Below, piece after piece: positions 47,392 through 57,081 of a DNA stretch of 64,000 nucleotides (positions within the stretch are counted from its first letter, which is position 1; every line of letters starts with the position of its first letter). This stretch comes from a virus. Under the pieces are notes generated by a model. It was not told where the DNA came from. It did not search any database and worked only from the letters and a program-made list of their open reading frames with translations. Where the stretch lies: IMG/VR virus record IMGVR_UViG_3300028666_000022, positions 186,001-250,000 of that record; one strand, written 5' to 3'. The position numbers and the translations under genes were made by a program.

Positions 47392-49914
47392 TTAACCATT
47401 TCCAGTTAATCCAGCTTTACCGTCATAATTTTTATTTCTAATATATGCACCTGTTTTAGTAGCCTCATGAAATTTATAACCATCTATATTCATAGTTATA
47501 TTAGAAACAACAGCAACTTGTTTATCAGTAAATTCAACTTTTACTCCATTTTTTAATAATTTAGATATTTCAGCAAATATACTTCCTCCTTTTGTATTCA
47601 TATTAGAAATTGATTCAACTGCATTTTTTACTGCAATAAAATCTTCTTTACTACCAGACATAACAGTATTTATTTGTTTAAAAGCATCACCTACTCTAGC
47701 TATAGCATCTGCATGTCCAGCAATTGTTTTCATTGTACCAGCAAATACTAATAATCCTAAACCTCCTGTTGTAAATAATGCCATACTACCAGCTAATGTT
47801 GCAATTCCAGCACCTAAACTTAACATAGATGCACCTGCTCCTTTACCAGCAGTAACCAGTTTTGAGAGCCCATCACCCATATATCCAATACCTGCAGCAG
47901 CAACTCCAATACCTCCACCTACCATTAAAACAGCAGCACCTAAAGCAAGTAATCCTACAGCACCAGCAGTGGCAGAACCAGCAACTAAAGCAATTCCAAT
48001 AGCAGCAGCAGGAAATGTAATTGCTAATGTAGTTGCAATTGATTTTAATGTATCTGCTTGTTTATCAGTTAATTTACTCATTGAATCAGCCAATTTACTT
48101 AATCCAACAGCAGCAATAGCTATACCACCACCAACACCTGCAGCAGCAGCACCTACCCCAACACCCATACCAAGTGCTTTTAAGCCTTGTCCTTTAGCTA
48201 AAGCACCACCAGCATTCATTTTATTTACTTGACCAACATCAAATGCTCTTTGAGCACCCTGATTAAGAGGAAGACCATTTTTACCTATTGTTGGAGTAGC
48301 ACCACCAAAACCGGGTAATTTACCAACTAAAGAACCAGCAACTTTATTTAAAATCATTCCACTGGCTTTAAATGCTACACTAGCAGCCATAAATGTAGCA
48401 GCAACTTTAAGCCAAGCAGGTGCTATTTGTGGTCCAGTTAAAAATTTAATAATACCTTCAGCATAGGGTCTAACAGAAACCATTACTTTATTTATACCTT
48501 GTAATATTGGTAATAATCCAGTTTTTAGTTCAGCAATACTTGCTTTAAATGCACTCTCTAAATCCTGTGCTGCTTTTGCCCTATCTTCTAAACTTACACT
48601 TTGTTTTGCAAATGCTTCTGCTTCTGTTTTAGTTAGAGATGAAATATCTCTCATTTGACCACCAAGTTCTACTTGAAATTTACTACTTTTACTGTTAAAA
48701 ATAGCAGCTCCTTTAATAAGTTCTTTTTCACGTCCAGTTAAACCAGTTCCAGATAATTCTGAATTCATTTTATCTAGTTCTGCTCTTCTTTGTGCAATTT
48801 GTGTTAACTCACTAGCTTGCATTCCTAATGATTTAGCAACTGCAGCAAGTCTATCTCTATCAGCAGGACTAATAAATTTTTCAAAAGTTCCATCGGCCAT
48901 TTTTCTAAATGAAACAACACCTTTGGTCATATCTGAAATTTTTTCAGTGAATTTAGCTGGATCATTACGACTTAAAAATAACATTTCAAATGGATCTGTT
49001 TTTGCAAATTCACCACCCATGACTTGTAATTGTGCAGCTAAATCAATAGCACCTTCAAGACTTTTAGCAATGTCAGCAGCATTAAGTGCATCAGTCATAC
49101 TAACTTTTAATTTTTCTCCACTTGCTGCCATTTGAGCAATACCTTTTGCTCCAGATTGAAAAGTATATGTATTTAATCTTTTAAAATTATCATTAACATT
49201 TTTTAATACCTTAGTAGTATTAACACCCATTCTTTCAGTAGTATCAACAATACCTTGAACAAAATTCATTGTTGATTTAGCATCTAAACCAATTAATTCA
49301 AATTGAGATCCTAATCTTGTTGCTTGTTCAATTCCTAATCCAGTTCCTTTACCAATAGCTGCAATATCTTTAACCATTTCTGCAGATAAAACCCTAGCTC
49401 TTCCAGTTTCATCAGCAAAACCTTGCATTACTGTTTGTATGTCTTCAATATTACCACCTAAACTAGCTACAAATCCAGCAGACTGTTCAAATGAATTTCT
49501 CATTAATTCTGCTTTTGTACCTGACATTCCAAGACTAAGAATTGTTTGACGAATAATTTTGTCAGACTGCATTAAATATTGAAAACCAGATTTTAATTGA
49601 GAATTAAAGCTAGTAAGTGTAGAATTTATTGTTTTTCTTAATTTCTGTTCATCAGTTAATTTATTATTAATACCACCTTGACTTTTCTCAATATCAGATA
49701 ACAACTTTTTTTCATCTTCGGTTAATTTACTACCTTTAGATTTTAAATCATTTATTAATTTTTGATTATTTAAATTAATTTCTTCTTGTTTTGCTCTGGC
49801 CGAACCTAAATCATTAATACTTAAAGATAAATCTCTCTGTGCTTTTAAAGCATCATTTTGTTGTTGTATTAATCTTATATTGTCTGAAAAATTTTTTTTA
49901 TCATCAGCAGCCAT
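47392..49914 (-). CDS. Tail tape measure protein
   Basis: The 840-residue protein has a helical, coiled-coil N-terminal region (about 1-125, many Gln/Lys/Glu), a long helical middle, and a C-terminal Ala/Gly-rich hydrophobic segment (about 530-770) with several membrane-like stretches (e.g. GVGVGAAAAGVGGGIAIAAVGL), as in tape measure proteins. It sets tail length and helps DNA pass into the cell. Two small tail-assembly genes lie immediately upstream, as expected. The following gene-free stretch ends its transcript. Confidence 0.8.
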   Translation of the reverse strand: MAADDKKNFSDNIRLIQQQNDALKAQRDLSLSINDLGSARAKQEEINLNNQKLINDLKSKGSKLTEDEKKLLSDIEKSQGGINNKLTDEQKLRKTINSTLTSFNSQLKSGFQYLMQSDKIIRQTILSLGMSGTKAELMRNSFEQSAGFVASLGGNIEDIQTVMQGFADETGRARVLSAEMVKDIAAIGKGTGLGIEQATRLGSQFELIGLDAKSTMNFVQGIVDTTERMGVNTTKVLKNVNDNFKRLNTYTFQSGAKGIAQMAASGEKLKVSMTDALNAADIAKSLEGAIDLAAQLQVMGGEFAKTDPFEMLFLSRNDPAKFTEKISDMTKGVVSFRKMADGTFEKFISPADRDRLAAVAKSLGMQASELTQIAQRRAELDKMNSELSGTGLTGREKELIKGAAIFNSKSSKFQVELGGQMRDISSLTKTEAEAFAKQSVSLEDRAKAAQDLESAFKASIAELKTGLLPILQGINKVMVSVRPYAEGIIKFLTGPQIAPAWLKVAATFMAASVAFKASGMILNKVAGSLVGKLPGFGGATPTIGKNGLPLNQGAQRAFDVGQVNKMNAGGALAKGQGLKALGMGVGVGAAAAGVGGGIAIAAVGLSKLADSMSKLTDKQADTLKSIATTLAITFPAAAIGIALVAGSATAGAVGLLALGAAVLMVGGGIGVAAAGIGYMGDGLSKLVTAGKGAGASMLSLGAGIATLAGSMALFTTGGLGLLVFAGTMKTIAGHADAIARVGDAFKQINTVMSGSKEDFIAVKNAVESISNMNTKGGSIFAEISKLLKNGVKVEFTDKQVAVVSNITMNIDGYKFHEATKTGAYIRNKNYDGKAGLTGNG

Positions 49915-49929
49915 TAGAATAGTATTTTA

Positions 49930-49938
49930 TATAAATAC
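49930..49938 (-). promoter_or_regulatory. Late-promoter-like motif GTATTTATA
   Basis: Located 16 bases upstream of the tape measure ATG, just after a strong terminator, so the tape measure could be transcribed on its own late promoter. Confidence 0.45.
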
Positions 49939-49942
49939 AAAA

Positions 49943-49974
49943 AATAAAAAAATCGAGATTTAATGTCTCGATTT
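49943..49974 (-). terminator. Rho-independent terminator overlapping the end of the frameshift product
   Basis: Arms AAATCGAGA and TCTCGATTT (49950-49958, 49966-49974) with a 7-base loop; on the minus strand the stem is followed by a T-rich run (T7-A-T6 within about 14 bases). The stop codon of the 55-residue frame lies in the hairpin loop. Confidence 0.75.
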
Positions 49975-50127
49975 ACTATTCGCTTGATCTTGTAATCTTT
50001 CTATTTCATCATTTTCTTTTTGTAATAAATGAAGAAAATATCGTCTTTTATAAATAGGAATATTTTCTATATAATCTGCTTGAAATTTTGCATGTTTAGT
50101 TAAAATATAAATTTCTTCCTGAACCAT
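49960..50127 (-). CDS. Small tail-assembly protein (downstream frame of a -1 frameshift pair)
   Basis: A 55-residue frame from the ATG at 50125-50127 (MVQEEIYILTKHAKFQADYIENI, then PIYKRRYFLHLLQKEN) with the PxYKRRxFL motif seen in small phage hub or tail-assembly proteins. Its frame is open upstream through the end of the 310-residue gene; the nine-T run at 50158-50166 (minus strand TTT-TTT-TTC) can slip by -1 and join the two, giving a fusion of about 372 residues. It may be made alone, as the fusion, or both. It sits just upstream of the tape measure gene. Confidence 0.65.
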   Translation of the reverse strand: MVQEEIYILTKHAKFQADYIENIPIYKRRYFLHLLQKENDEIERLQDQANSKSRH

Positions 50128-50144
50128 ACGTTTATAAGATTCTA

Positions 50145-51077
50145 CTAGTTCGAGGGGAAAAAAAAATCCACACCTACGCTCAAAGTAGCATTAAATTTAT
50201 AACCATCTTTAGCTGTAAATTCATAATTCATATCTACATCAGGACTAACTTCTAATATTTTTTTACGAATAGTATATGCATCGAGTGCTGGCATAGCATC
50301 AACAAATTTATCAATATAAGCTCTTTCTGTTTTTTCATTAATTGCAACAATATGTGCTTTTAATTTTAATGTATTATATTGACTAACATCTTCATTATAA
50401 GCTTCTTTAATTGCTTCTGCTTTTTTAAAAATTTGATTTTCATCACCTGAACTAAGTAATCTAAATACAACTGTTTTTTTACGCATAGGTAACTCAACAA
50501 CGAAATTTCCATCTTCATTTGGAAGTTCAACTAATGTCTTATATTTTAATTTTAATAAATTAACAGTGGTTTTAAATGGAATACCACTTCTAGGATCAGT
50601 TACTTGTACAGTATAATCTGAACCATAACTTGAAGTACGAAGAAATAAAATAATTGCATTTCTATCACCAGCTAACAAATGTTCAGGATTAACTCCACTG
50701 GTTTTAATTTTTCTTTTTAATAATAAATCTAAAACACTACCATTTTCAATTAATGAAGGGGTTGTTAATAAATCTTCATCTTTAGATGTCATATATTCAA
50801 CATTTACTTCAGAAATGTGATTAGCATCGAATAAACCTTTTGATGGTAATTTAATTAATTCATAAGAAGTCATTAAATCAGGATCAGTTTCTTTTGACAT
50901 TGTTTTCTCAAAATCTTGAGGATTAAAAGGTTTGGCTCTTGGTACTGAATCAGTAATTACTTTATTATTGTTTGGTAATGAATCAATATTATCTGATGTA
51001 TTATTAGTACTTTCTTTATATTTTTTTAAAACATCAGAAATGTTTTCTTTTTTTGGTTGATTCAAATTTTCTTTCAT
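50145..51077 (-). CDS. gp26-like baseplate hub/tail-assembly chaperone protein
   Basis: The 310-residue protein has a 65-residue disordered N-terminus, then KLPSKGLFDANHISEVNVEYMTSKDEDLL (about 75-105), LLAGDRNAIILFLRTSSYGSDY (about 135-156), which correspond to the recurring pattern P-S-x-G-x-(F/L), M-T-x-x-(E/D)-(E/D)-L-L, G-D-R-N-A-I-(L/I)-x-x-x-R of T4 gp26-like proteins. It ends SVGVDFFFPSN. The Phe run is encoded by a slippery T-run, so a minor -1 product with the following frame is expected. Place and arrangement match tail chaperones preceding the tape measure gene. Confidence 0.65.
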   Translation of the reverse strand: MKENLNQPKKENISDVLKKYKESTNNTSDNIDSLPNNNKVITDSVPRAKPFNPQDFEKTMSKETDPDLMTSYELIKLPSKGLFDANHISEVNVEYMTSKDEDLLTTPSLIENGSVLDLLLKRKIKTSGVNPEHLLAGDRNAIILFLRTSSYGSDYTVQVTDPRSGIPFKTTVNLLKLKYKTLVELPNEDGNFVVELPMRKKTVVFRLLSSGDENQIFKKAEAIKEAYNEDVSQYNTLKLKAHIVAINEKTERAYIDKFVDAMPALDAYTIRKKILEVSPDVDMNYEFTAKDGYKFNATLSVGVDFFFPSN

Positions 51078-51253
51078 TTTATAAAATTTTATATTTTATT
51101 ATTGTTTTTATAAATACAAGCATTTTAAAAAATTTATAAAATAATATAAAAATAATTCAAGATTATTTAAAATTTTACGTATTAGTAGTTAAAGTAAAAC
51201 TTTAAGTAGAATAAAAGAATTAATTTAAATAATAATTGTATTTCATTGATTAA
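51078..51253. promoter_or_regulatory. Divergent promoter region with palindrome
   Basis: This 176-base gap separates the minus-strand tail genes from the plus-strand operon. It contains GTATTTATA on the minus strand (51109-51117) and the 17-base palindrome TTAAAGTAAAACTTTAA (51189-51205), also found after the tape measure gene. No Bacteroidota-type -7 element was recognised for the plus-strand genes, but the palindrome could be a regulator binding site or an RNA hairpin. Confidence 0.45.
51189..51205. repeat. Palindromic repeat, copy 2
   Basis: TTAAAGTAAAACTTTAA, identical to 47373-47389, lies in the divergent region between tail genes and the plus-strand operon, 49 bases before the first start codon of the latter. 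Confidence 0.6.
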
Positions 51254-52874: not shown

Positions 52875-54020
52875 ATGAGCGAAGAATTAATGAATAACGA
52901 AGTACAAAAGGCTGATTCAGAAAAATTAGAAAAAATTAAACTTTCTTTAGATAAAATATCTAATAAAAAATCAAAATTTCTTTTCTGTGTTCCTGAATCA
53001 CAAAATCCTAATGCAAGTGTATATGAAATTTATTTTCATGCTACAGTTGTAAAAAATATGGGTTATGAAGTACTCATTTTAGTAGAAAAGGGTGATTATG
53101 TAATACCTACTTGGGTTGAACAAGAATTAACAGATTTTAAACATATTCCAATGGCCGATCCTAAATTAACTGTTGGACCAGAAGATGTGATGATTATTCC
53201 AGAAGTATATTCAAATATTATGGAACAAACAAAAAATCTTCCATGTATACGAGTTGGTTTATTACAATCTGTTGATTATATGTTAAATGGGCTAATACCG
53301 GGAACAGATTGGAAATCATTTGGAATAGATAATATTATAACAACATCACAGACAATAAAAGAATGGATTGAAACATATTATAGTAAAAATAAATTTAATA
53401 TTATTACTTATGATATTGGTATACCAGAATATTTTGAAAAATCAACAGTTCCACAAAAACCAATAATTTCAGTTGTTGGTAGAAATGCAAATGAAATATC
53501 TAAACTAGTTAAATTATTTTTTAGTAGATATCCTCAATATAGTTGGGTAACATTTGATCCAATGCTTACTAAGAGTAAACCACCTCAACAAATGAGAAGA
53601 GTTGATTTTGCTAAAAGATTGGCTGGAAATTTTGCTGCTGTTTGGGTAGATAGAATAGCTTCTCTAGGTACATTTCCATTAGAATGTATGAAATCTGGTG
53701 TAATTCCAATTTGTTTAAAACCAGATATTATGCCAGAATATTTACTTGAAAGAGGTGAAAATTCTGAAGATGTTAAAGTAGTTGATGGTGCAGGTGTTTG
53801 GACAAGTAATTATTATGATATACCTGTTTTAGTTGGTGAAGTACTAATAAAATATCTTGATGATGCAATTATGCCTGAATTGTATGCTTCAATGGATAAA
53901 ATAGTTGAAAAATATACTCAAGAAAATTCAGAAAAACAATTAGTTAATATATATCAAGGTTTAGTTGATACTAGAATTGCTTTATTTAAAGCAGCAATTG
54001 AACCAACAGAAAATAAATAA
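52875..54020 (+). CDS. GT-B-like glycosyltransferase in the late operon
   Basis: The 381-residue protein begins with a helix-rich leader (about 1-35) and then shows FLFCVPESQNPNASVYEIYF, YEVLILVEKGDYV and PIISVVGRNANEIS, with a C-terminal FPLECMKSGVIPICLKPD segment of the GT4/GT-B donor-site type. Unlike the island enzymes, it is encoded among virion and late-expression genes, next to a GT2-like gene. Its target could be a virion protein or host glycan, not known. Confidence 0.55.
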   Translation: MSEELMNNEVQKADSEKLEKIKLSLDKISNKKSKFLFCVPESQNPNASVYEIYFHATVVKNMGYEVLILVEKGDYVIPTWVEQELTDFKHIPMADPKLTVGPEDVMIIPEVYSNIMEQTKNLPCIRVGLLQSVDYMLNGLIPGTDWKSFGIDNIITTSQTIKEWIETYYSKNKFNIITYDIGIPEYFEKSTVPQKPIISVVGRNANEISKLVKLFFSRYPQYSWVTFDPMLTKSKPPQQMRRVDFAKRLAGNFAAVWVDRIASLGTFPLECMKSGVIPICLKPDIMPEYLLERGENSEDVKVVDGAGVWTSNYYDIPVLVGEVLIKYLDDAIMPELYASMDKIVEKYTQENSEKQLVNIYQGLVDTRIALFKAAIEPTENK

Positions 54021-54897: not shown

Positions 54898-55770
54898 ATG
54901 AGGAAAGTTGATCCAGAAAATGCACAATATTTTGCAGAAAGAGAAGAACGAGCTGTTTTTAATTATATAAATTCAGATTTATTAGAAGAAAAAAATAGAA
55001 TTTATAATGAGGTTCTAATTGAACCATTCAGAAAAATGATAGAGTCTATTTTAAGAAGGTATCCAATTCATATAGGTAATTATGAAATGTATGAGGTTGA
55101 AGCCAATGCTCTAACACATTTGATTGAACACATGATTAAATATAGACCGTTTATTATTGAACAAAGTAAAGATGAAATTAAATGGGTTAAATTAAATAAT
55201 AATTATAGATTTTGGTATGTTGAAGATGCTAACGAAAAATTAAATTTGTTAATTAGTGAAAATAATGGGTTTAGTTATAGAATTTTCAATTCCAGAGCTT
55301 ATAGTTATTGTCAAACAATCATCAGAAATTATTATAAAGATCATAGTAAAAAAAGTTATAATGAAAAAAAAATGATACTATCATTTGATGATTACGCAGA
55401 TGAAATTGAAGAAAGTGATGAATATGTATATGAAATTGAGAATGATGAACACAATCATTTAGATAAATTAATTAAGAATGTAATTGATAAAATAGAGGAA
55501 AAAATTAATAATGATCCTCTTATTAAAAGAAATGAATTTATTGTTGGAGATGCTATAATTAATGTTTTAAATAATTGGCATCTCCTTTTTATGGAAGATA
55601 CTCCAGACGGTAAATATAATAAAAGAATTACCAATAAATTTGCTAAAAATAAGATCTTATTATACTTAAAAGAACAAACTGGCTTATCAACAAAAGAAAT
55701 ACGATTAGCAATAAAACCCTTTAAAGACGTATATTTCATTGAAAAGATAGGTTATTGGAAAGAAGAATAA
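54898..55770 (+). CDS. Probable late transcription sigma factor, gp55-like
   Basis: The 290-residue protein has EREERAVFNYINSDL and KNRIYNEVLIEPFRKMIESILRRYPIHIG (about 32-60) followed by AYSYCQTIIRNYYKDHSKKSYNEKK (about 139-163), resembling the sigma-2-like region of T4 gp55-type late factors, as I recall them from phages of Bacteroidota. T4 gp55 is shorter (185). It would direct RNA polymerase to late promoters such as the GTATTTATA motif. The C-terminal half has a helix-turn-helix-like segment (TGLSTKEIRLAIK). Confidence 0.6.
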   Translation: MRKVDPENAQYFAEREERAVFNYINSDLLEEKNRIYNEVLIEPFRKMIESILRRYPIHIGNYEMYEVEANALTHLIEHMIKYRPFIIEQSKDEIKWVKLNNNYRFWYVEDANEKLNLLISENNGFSYRIFNSRAYSYCQTIIRNYYKDHSKKSYNEKKMILSFDDYADEIEESDEYVYEIENDEHNHLDKLIKNVIDKIEEKINNDPLIKRNEFIVGDAIINVLNNWHLLFMEDTPDGKYNKRITNKFAKNKILLYLKEQTGLSTKEIRLAIKPFKDVYFIEKIGYWKEE

Positions 55771-56475: not shown

Positions 56476-57081
56476 ATGAGAATATGTATAACGTGTAAAG
56501 AAAATAAAGAAGATTCTTGTTTTCATAAAGATAAAAGTAAACCAGATGGAATATATACTATATGTAAACAATGTTTAAAAAATAAATATCATACAGATGA
56601 ATTAAAAATTAAGAAAAGAGAATATGATAAACAATATAGAATAAAAAATAAAGAAATTTATGCTGAAAGACACAAAATATATCAAAAAAATTTATCATTA
56701 GAACAAAGAGCAAAATATAATCGTGAATATAGACATAGACATGCAGATAAATGGAAAAAATGGGACTTAGATTATAGAAATAAAAATAAATGTAAATTTG
56801 CATGGAGAGCAGTGTTACGTAATTTTTTTATACGTTTTGGAATAAAGAAAAATGGTTTAACATGTAATCTTTTAGATTATGATTTTGAAAAATTTAAACA
56901 AAGAATAGAATTTAATTTTAAAGAAGGTATGAGCTGGAATAATTATGGTGAATGGCACATTGATCATAAAAAACCAATATCTAAATTTAAAATAGATACA
57001 CCACCACACATAGTAAATGCATTATGTAATTTACAACCATTGTGGGCAAAAGATAATCTATCCAAAGGTAATAAATTTTAA
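56476..57081 (+). CDS. HNH endonuclease
   Basis: The 201-residue protein has an N-terminal zinc ribbon (CITCKENKEDSCFHKDK, CKQC, residues 3-34), a basic helical middle with repeated Y-x-R segments, and a C-terminal HNH motif (WHIDHKKPISKF, then NALCNLQPLWAKDNLSKGNK). It is a free-standing homing or nicking endonuclease inserted within the late operon. Confidence 0.8.
   Translation: MRICITCKENKEDSCFHKDKSKPDGIYTICKQCLKNKYHTDELKIKKREYDKQYRIKNKEIYAERHKIYQKNLSLEQRAKYNREYRHRHADKWKKWDLDYRNKNKCKFAWRAVLRNFFIRFGIKKNGLTCNLLDYDFEKFKQRIEFNFKEGMSWNNYGEWHIDHKKPISKFKIDTPPHIVNALCNLQPLWAKDNLSKGNKF

Follow-up and report, generated by a model that had tools for sequence, protein, structure and literature searches.

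The window, by which we mean the whole 64,000-nucleotide stretch of viral DNA that was analysed (positions 186,001 to 250,000 of IMG/VR record IMGVR_UViG_3300028666_000022), carries on its minus strand a 310-residue ORF, a short overlapping frame and an 840-residue ORF (Table 1). We refer to the product of the first as TAC-N and to its frameshifted extension as TAC-NC, after the tail assembly chaperone (TAC) forms that these frames resemble. The TAC-N ORF ends in GGT GTG GAT TTT TTT TTC CCC TCG AAC TAG (protein ...GVDFFFPSN*) and includes a run of nine T, seen as A9 on the plus strand at 50158-50166. Two in-phase heptamers of the XXXYYYZ type, T_TTT_TTT and T_TTT_TTC, lie within the site. Read in the -1 frame from the T run, the codons are TTT TTT TTT CCC CTC GAA CTA GTA GAA TCT TAT AAA CGT ATG..., so that the frame continues as PLELVESYKRM..., runs into a 55-aa ORF and reaches its stop at 49960-49962. 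The preliminary description of this DNA had reported a 310-residue gene ending on GAT TTT TTT TTC CCC over nine T, with a -1 frame open through the run and a fusion of about 372 residues; the letters bear out each of these statements, and the fusion is exactly 372 aa long, with FFF at residues 305-307 followed by 65 more residues. The two forms would be distinguishable by the C-terminal peptide of TAC-N, FNATLSVGVDFFFPSN, and by the trans-frame tryptic peptide of TAC-NC in the window's phage, FNATLSVGVDFFFPLELVESYK. The 340-kb record contains just 8 separate T9 runs, both strands counted, and the 15-mer spanning the slip site, GATTTTTTTTTCCCC, occurs there once. An A9 run is also present at window 55364-55372, within a 290-aa plus-strand ORF (54898-55770).

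Table 1. Features of the proposed chaperone locus and its probable tape measure neighbour (window coordinates).
Feature	Coordinates	Strand	Comment
TAC-N ORF, 310 aa + stop, short chaperone form	50145..51077	-	PF12322 / phrog_150 N-part, T4 gp26-like
Slippery site T_TTT_TTT_TTC (T9 = 50166-50158 + C of TTC)	50157..50166	-	Invariant in 13 distinct clade members
0-frame stop codon TAG, shortly 3' of the slip site	50145..50147	-	Nearby 0-frame stop kept in relatives
-1 frame, open from T9 to stop, FFFPLELVESYKRMVQEEIYILTKHAKFQADYIENIPIYKRRYFLHLLQKENDEIERLQDQANSKSRH; TAC-C part of the predicted 372-aa TAC-NC	49960..50166	-	
Possible 3' stimulatory stem, 5' arm, 7 nt after T9	50143..50150	-	
Possible 3' stimulatory stem, 3' arm	50085..50092	-	
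55-aa ORF from the in-frame ATG of TAC-C	49960..50127	-	Probably no independent gene
840-aa ORF, 45 nt 3' of TAC-C	47392..49914	-	Probable tape measure, expected chaperone client

Profile searches place both frames in one protein family. Residues 69-306 of the 310-aa protein match PF12322 (E=2.7e-9, 37.5 bits, against a curated cut-off of 24.5 bits), and the same protein matches positions 17-233 of the 282-position profile phrog_150 ('baseplate hub'; E=3.6e-9), in agreement with its initial assignment as gp26-like. When the -1 fusion is searched instead, the phrog_150 match extends from position 233 to 281 of 282 and its score rises from 37.4 to 45.4 bits. A phrog_150 search of whole phage records revealed that T4 gp51 occupies positions 3-281 in one frame and T4 gp26 only 10-236, and that another frame just 3' of gp26 matches the final ~50 positions in P-SSM2, HTVC008M and Melnitz; given these spans and out-of-frame matches, the profile segment missing from the 310-aa protein corresponds to the 55-residue frame. 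Searched by itself against Pfam and PHROGs, the 55-aa ORF gave no significant family, so the gp51-type assignment of the C-part rests on the fused match and the family alignments. Together, these comparisons establish that both parts are homologous to the T4 gp26/gp51 family. T4 genes 26 and 51 themselves (locus L016, 3803-5229) are paralogues in opposite orientation, gp26 stopping at the N-part; GenBank also lists 26', an internal-start product comprising the C-terminal 95 residues.

Structure prediction was carried out with AlphaFold on the N-part and C-part separately, yielding an N-domain model with a pLDDT of 90.9 and a two-helix hairpin for the C-part with a pLDDT of 77.5. Foldseek returned no significant E-value for the N-domain model against the PDB. 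A structural aligner was run on the PDB chains ranked highest by Foldseek, and the best two matches, over model residues 1-94, were 2ob9 (the HK97 tail assembly chaperone; Z 5.1, rmsd 4.0, 80 aligned) and 3klu (YqbN, which we take to be a prophage tail assembly chaperone; Z 5.0, rmsd 4.0, 89 aligned), both modest similarities below the Z of 8 from which such a match would count as conclusive. These matches suggest that the N-domain may adopt a tail assembly chaperone fold.

The 840-aa ORF gave no tape-measure family match in Pfam or PHROGs, and pairwise BLASTP against the tape measures of immuto and SP-15 returned no significant match. Its central part is hydrophobic, and the ORF is conserved behind the chaperone gene, with 39-60% identity in the window's clade and about 30% in sister loci that require a +1 shift. 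In immuto, SP-15 and LIS04, annotated tape measure genes lie directly behind the chaperone locus. Position, length, hydrophobic central part and synteny indicate that the ORF is probably the tape measure gene. Elsewhere in the window, an ORF at 54051-54869 matches glycosyl transferase family 2 (PF00535, just above the cut-off), and the adjoining 381-aa ORF (52875-54020), which has no Pfam match, may also encode a glycosyltransferase. A 201-aa ORF at 56476-57081 contains paired Cys motifs and a C-terminal stretch resembling HNH-type homing endonucleases, with no Pfam match at E<0.01.

Comparison with relatives revealed strict conservation of the site. The clade consists of the window and 12 further distinct, closely related sequences, all with GAT TTT TTT TTC CCN, and GATTTTTTTTTCCC is invariant in the alignment of these 13 sequences. 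The preliminary description had looked to related phages for the same slippery run and an open -1 frame; in all of the clade's distinct members (13/13) the run is exactly T9 and the frame is open. The Phe codons at the site are TTT TTT TTC in all 13, whereas TTT accounts for 76% of Phe codons elsewhere in the same genes.

A wider survey covered 203 distinct loci with both parts and enough downstream sequence, drawn from viral contigs and a few phage records. The C-part was never absent and never in frame: at every one of the 203 loci it was out of frame yet continuous with the N-part, 189 in +1 and 14 in -1, where '+1' counts cover both +1 and -2 shifts, the two being indistinguishable from sequence. 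The -1 direction originally proposed is therefore upheld for the window's clade (13/13) and does not extend to the wider family, which is mostly +1 (or -2). Sites of the +1 group read TTT TTT TGG or TTT TTT TAY, with exactly T7 in 126 of 132 loci of the first set, and TTT serves as the second Phe codon in 131/131, compared with 76% elsewhere in the same genes. A further 54 +1 loci, mostly of the sister clade, have T7 in 53 cases and T8 in one. More distant +1 phages shift at the same Phe codons on diverse sequences (RM378, TTTTTTTGG; SP-15, TTTTTTC; GXN1, TTCTTTC; LR756508, TTTC). Distant -1 phages likewise use these codons and have the canonical heptamer T_TTT_TTY in the same place, as T_TTT_TTC in P-SSM2, Syn9 and KVP40 and as T_TTT_TTT in HTVC008M and Melnitz. 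Locus L077 (3715-4080) is the only surveyed member of the +1 group with its C-part in -1; it has extra sequence between the N-part and C-part, and AAGGA-ATG precedes the C-part as if it were a separate gene.

We interpret TAC-N and TAC-NC as a chaperone pair of the lambda gpG/gpGT type, produced in a large T4-like phage by -1 ribosomal slippage, a reading to which we assign a probability of roughly 0.8. A -1 frameshift in a gpG/gpGT-type chaperone had been put forward at the outset, and it gains support from the open shifted frame, its conservation, the gp26/gp51 homology and the best PDB matches. Most ribosomes would terminate at the TAG and release TAC-N, and a minority would slip -1 on T_TTT_TTT_TTC, the two tRNA-Phe re-pairing one base upstream so that the TAG is bypassed. 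The slip would append a 65-residue helical-hairpin domain to give TAC-NC. By analogy with lambda gpG/gpGT, many copies of TAC-N together with few of TAC-NC would coat the tape measure protein encoded by the adjacent gene, and the C-domain would recruit tail-tube subunits. Both the position and the anatomy of the locus fit such a pair acting on the tape measure protein. The occurrence of slippage, its ribosomal nature, its rate and the binding roles of the two forms are inferences.

Folding of the clade sequences points to some structure directly after the site (offset 3), with a mean z of -1.55 compared with about 0 elsewhere. Several relatives form the candidate stem of Table 1 well. A stem of this kind in some clade members is nevertheless suggestive only, because RNAalifold found no supported consensus structure in the clade alignment, because the stem was picked by eye on the same alignment in which its double changes were counted (8 cells versus 3.8 in shuffles, 2/500), and because the window copy is poor (5/8 pairs, z -0.3). 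A search of 49800-51200 against Rfam returned nothing meaningful.

The lack of a strong 3' RNA structure in the window itself would suit transcriptional slippage, in which phage or host RNA polymerase adds one U (or drops two) on T9 and the ribosome stays in frame. Slippage by RNA polymerase calls for a homopolymer of about 8-9 or more, a length that T9 reaches; the homopolymer is exactly nine in 13/13 clade members, and the same logic minus one T would serve the T7/+1 group. However, the homologous sites of P-SSM2, Syn9 and KVP40 have only T6, always in the phase T_TTT_TTC, and the Phe codon is kept in SP-15, GXN1 and LR756508, whose sites have no long homopolymer; moreover, the in-phase placement of the codons is what ribosomal slippage predicts. 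We consider transcriptional slippage unlikely on this evidence, although it is the main rival of the ribosomal model.

A second alternative is that the locus encodes two proteins, the 55-aa ORF being translated separately from its ATG at 50127, 17 nt past the TAG. In its favour, 13/14 clade loci keep this in-frame ATG and many of them have purine-rich sequence ahead of it, an overlapping TAATG is seen in KVP40, and GenBank records of cyanophages and KVP40 annotate small gp51 genes as separate. Several features nevertheless run counter to independent translation. Upstream of the ATG the -1 frame is open and the residues FFFPxxLxGEYKK are conserved; in L019 the ATG is replaced by ATA (KKILDEE), while the sequence before it stays conserved; and in the window no clear Shine-Dalgarno stretch precedes the ATG. 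Of 149 +1 loci, 79 lack any ATG, GTG or TTG in the first 20 codons past the site, a region whose peptide is conserved, so that the conserved start of the C-part cannot be initiated independently at those loci. T4 gp51, finally, contains N and C fused in one frame. The 55-aa ORF is thus probably not a gene of its own, and separate translation seems to us very improbable. The remaining alternative, a sequencing or assembly error in the error-prone T9 of what is really an in-frame fusion gene, is ruled out by 13 distinct sequences, mostly from different metagenomes, with exact T9 and an intact 0-frame stop, and the gene is likewise split in isolates and the wider family, except for gp51 of T4 and 44RR.

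Public annotation treats the C-part in various ways. Frameshifted C-parts are annotated as separate small genes in L225 (2718-2891), L226 (2749-2892), L227 (3367-3504), L228 (4613-4780), L183 (3756-3899), L013 (4827-4937) and L181 (3821-3940). In public records such frames are labelled 'gp51', 'baseplate hub assembly' or hypothetical, and the long chaperone form is thus missing; the C-part is called 'gp51' in cyanophages and KVP40 and hypothetical in immuto and SP-15. Our comparisons indicate that such small genes, whether called 'gp51' or hypothetical, in the records of cyanophages, vibriophages and Flavobacterium phages are probably the C-terminal halves of a frameshifted chaperone.

In the N-domain tree the -1 clade (100/100) falls within the +1 group, well away from the -1 cyanophages, and groups with the +1 loci L021, L025, L028 and L060 and their relatives (20 rows, 100/98). 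None of the bootstrap trees unites the +1 rows as one clade. By the AU test, a single clade for all -1 rows is rejected (p 0.018), and a single clade for all +1 rows is borderline (p 0.0495). Measured by hand from the first T of the run to a conserved Tyr codon, the spacing in L021 and that in L002 are 8 nt apart, a difference consistent with an indel that altered the required frame as T7 became T9. In the immuto/Mel-JY01 group, large and mostly environmental, the shift would be +1 (or -2) at TTT_TTT_T(GG/AY), with tRNA-Phe probably re-pairing from UUU onto UUU/UUC; the site in the window's clade would have become T9, the -1 shift apparently following an indel between the slip site and the C-domain. 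We therefore think it likely that the direction of the shift switched within one homologous chaperone gene, the -1/T9 clade of the window being nested in a +1/T7 group. Such a switch implies that in evolution the link between the frames can be exchanged (a -1 shift, a +1 shift or, as in T4, paralogous genes), with the two-form output kept. If the nested tree is true, the family offers a natural experiment in which frameshift direction changed while the product was conserved.

A close parallel is lambda gpG/gpGT, a short chaperone and a rarer long form made by a -1 shift, from a locus that immediately precedes the tape measure gene, as the window's locus probably does too. The slippery sequence differs from that of the window, being G_GGA_AAG in lambda. 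A 2016 review (PMC5009743) described G-T frameshifting as conserved in long-tailed phages 'except T4'; our comparisons provide sequence support for the use of gpG/gpGT logic, described there as absent from T4, by a widespread group of large T4-like phages. The preliminary reading of a frameshifted chaperone holds, and for T4-like phages the phenomenon had already been published by Vladimirov, Gautam & Davidson (2022, Virology 566:9-15), whose account of T4-like gp26 (TAC-N) and gp51 (TAC-NC) as tail assembly chaperones is represented in PMC12846349 and PMC10885494. According to PMC12846349, which cites that study, poly-T -1 slippery sequences are known in T4-like TAC-N genes; as relayed by a citing paper, the study also describes T4-like phages in which a short gene and a long, fused gene take the place of the shift. 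We found no literature report of a direction switch, the 2022 study being represented by the papers that cite it, and the switch, like the +1 group itself, may be new.

With T4 itself the window shares the protein family (PF12322/phrog_150) and the N and N+C forms of gp26 and gp51. T4 differs in using two paralogous genes and no shift, whereas the link is T9 in -1 in the window's clade and T7 in +1 in the closest relatives outside it. The TAC of Vandenendeviridae and Andersonviridae, as in phage Adele (PMC12846349), is similar in its conserved -1 shift at a T-rich site before the tape measure; there the site is GTTTTT and the downstream frame was misannotated as a separate gene. These phages belong to another family and have a shorter T run than the window. 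The 'gp26' and short 'gp51' of cyanophages and KVP40 (P-SSM2, Syn9, HTVC008M, KVP40) show the same two parts in a -1 relation and a T_TTT_TTC/T ending to gp26; Sullivan et al. 2010 (PMC3037559) remarked that gp51 of cyanophages reaches only about 20% of the length. They differ from the window in being annotated as two genes and in carrying T6-T7 rather than T9.
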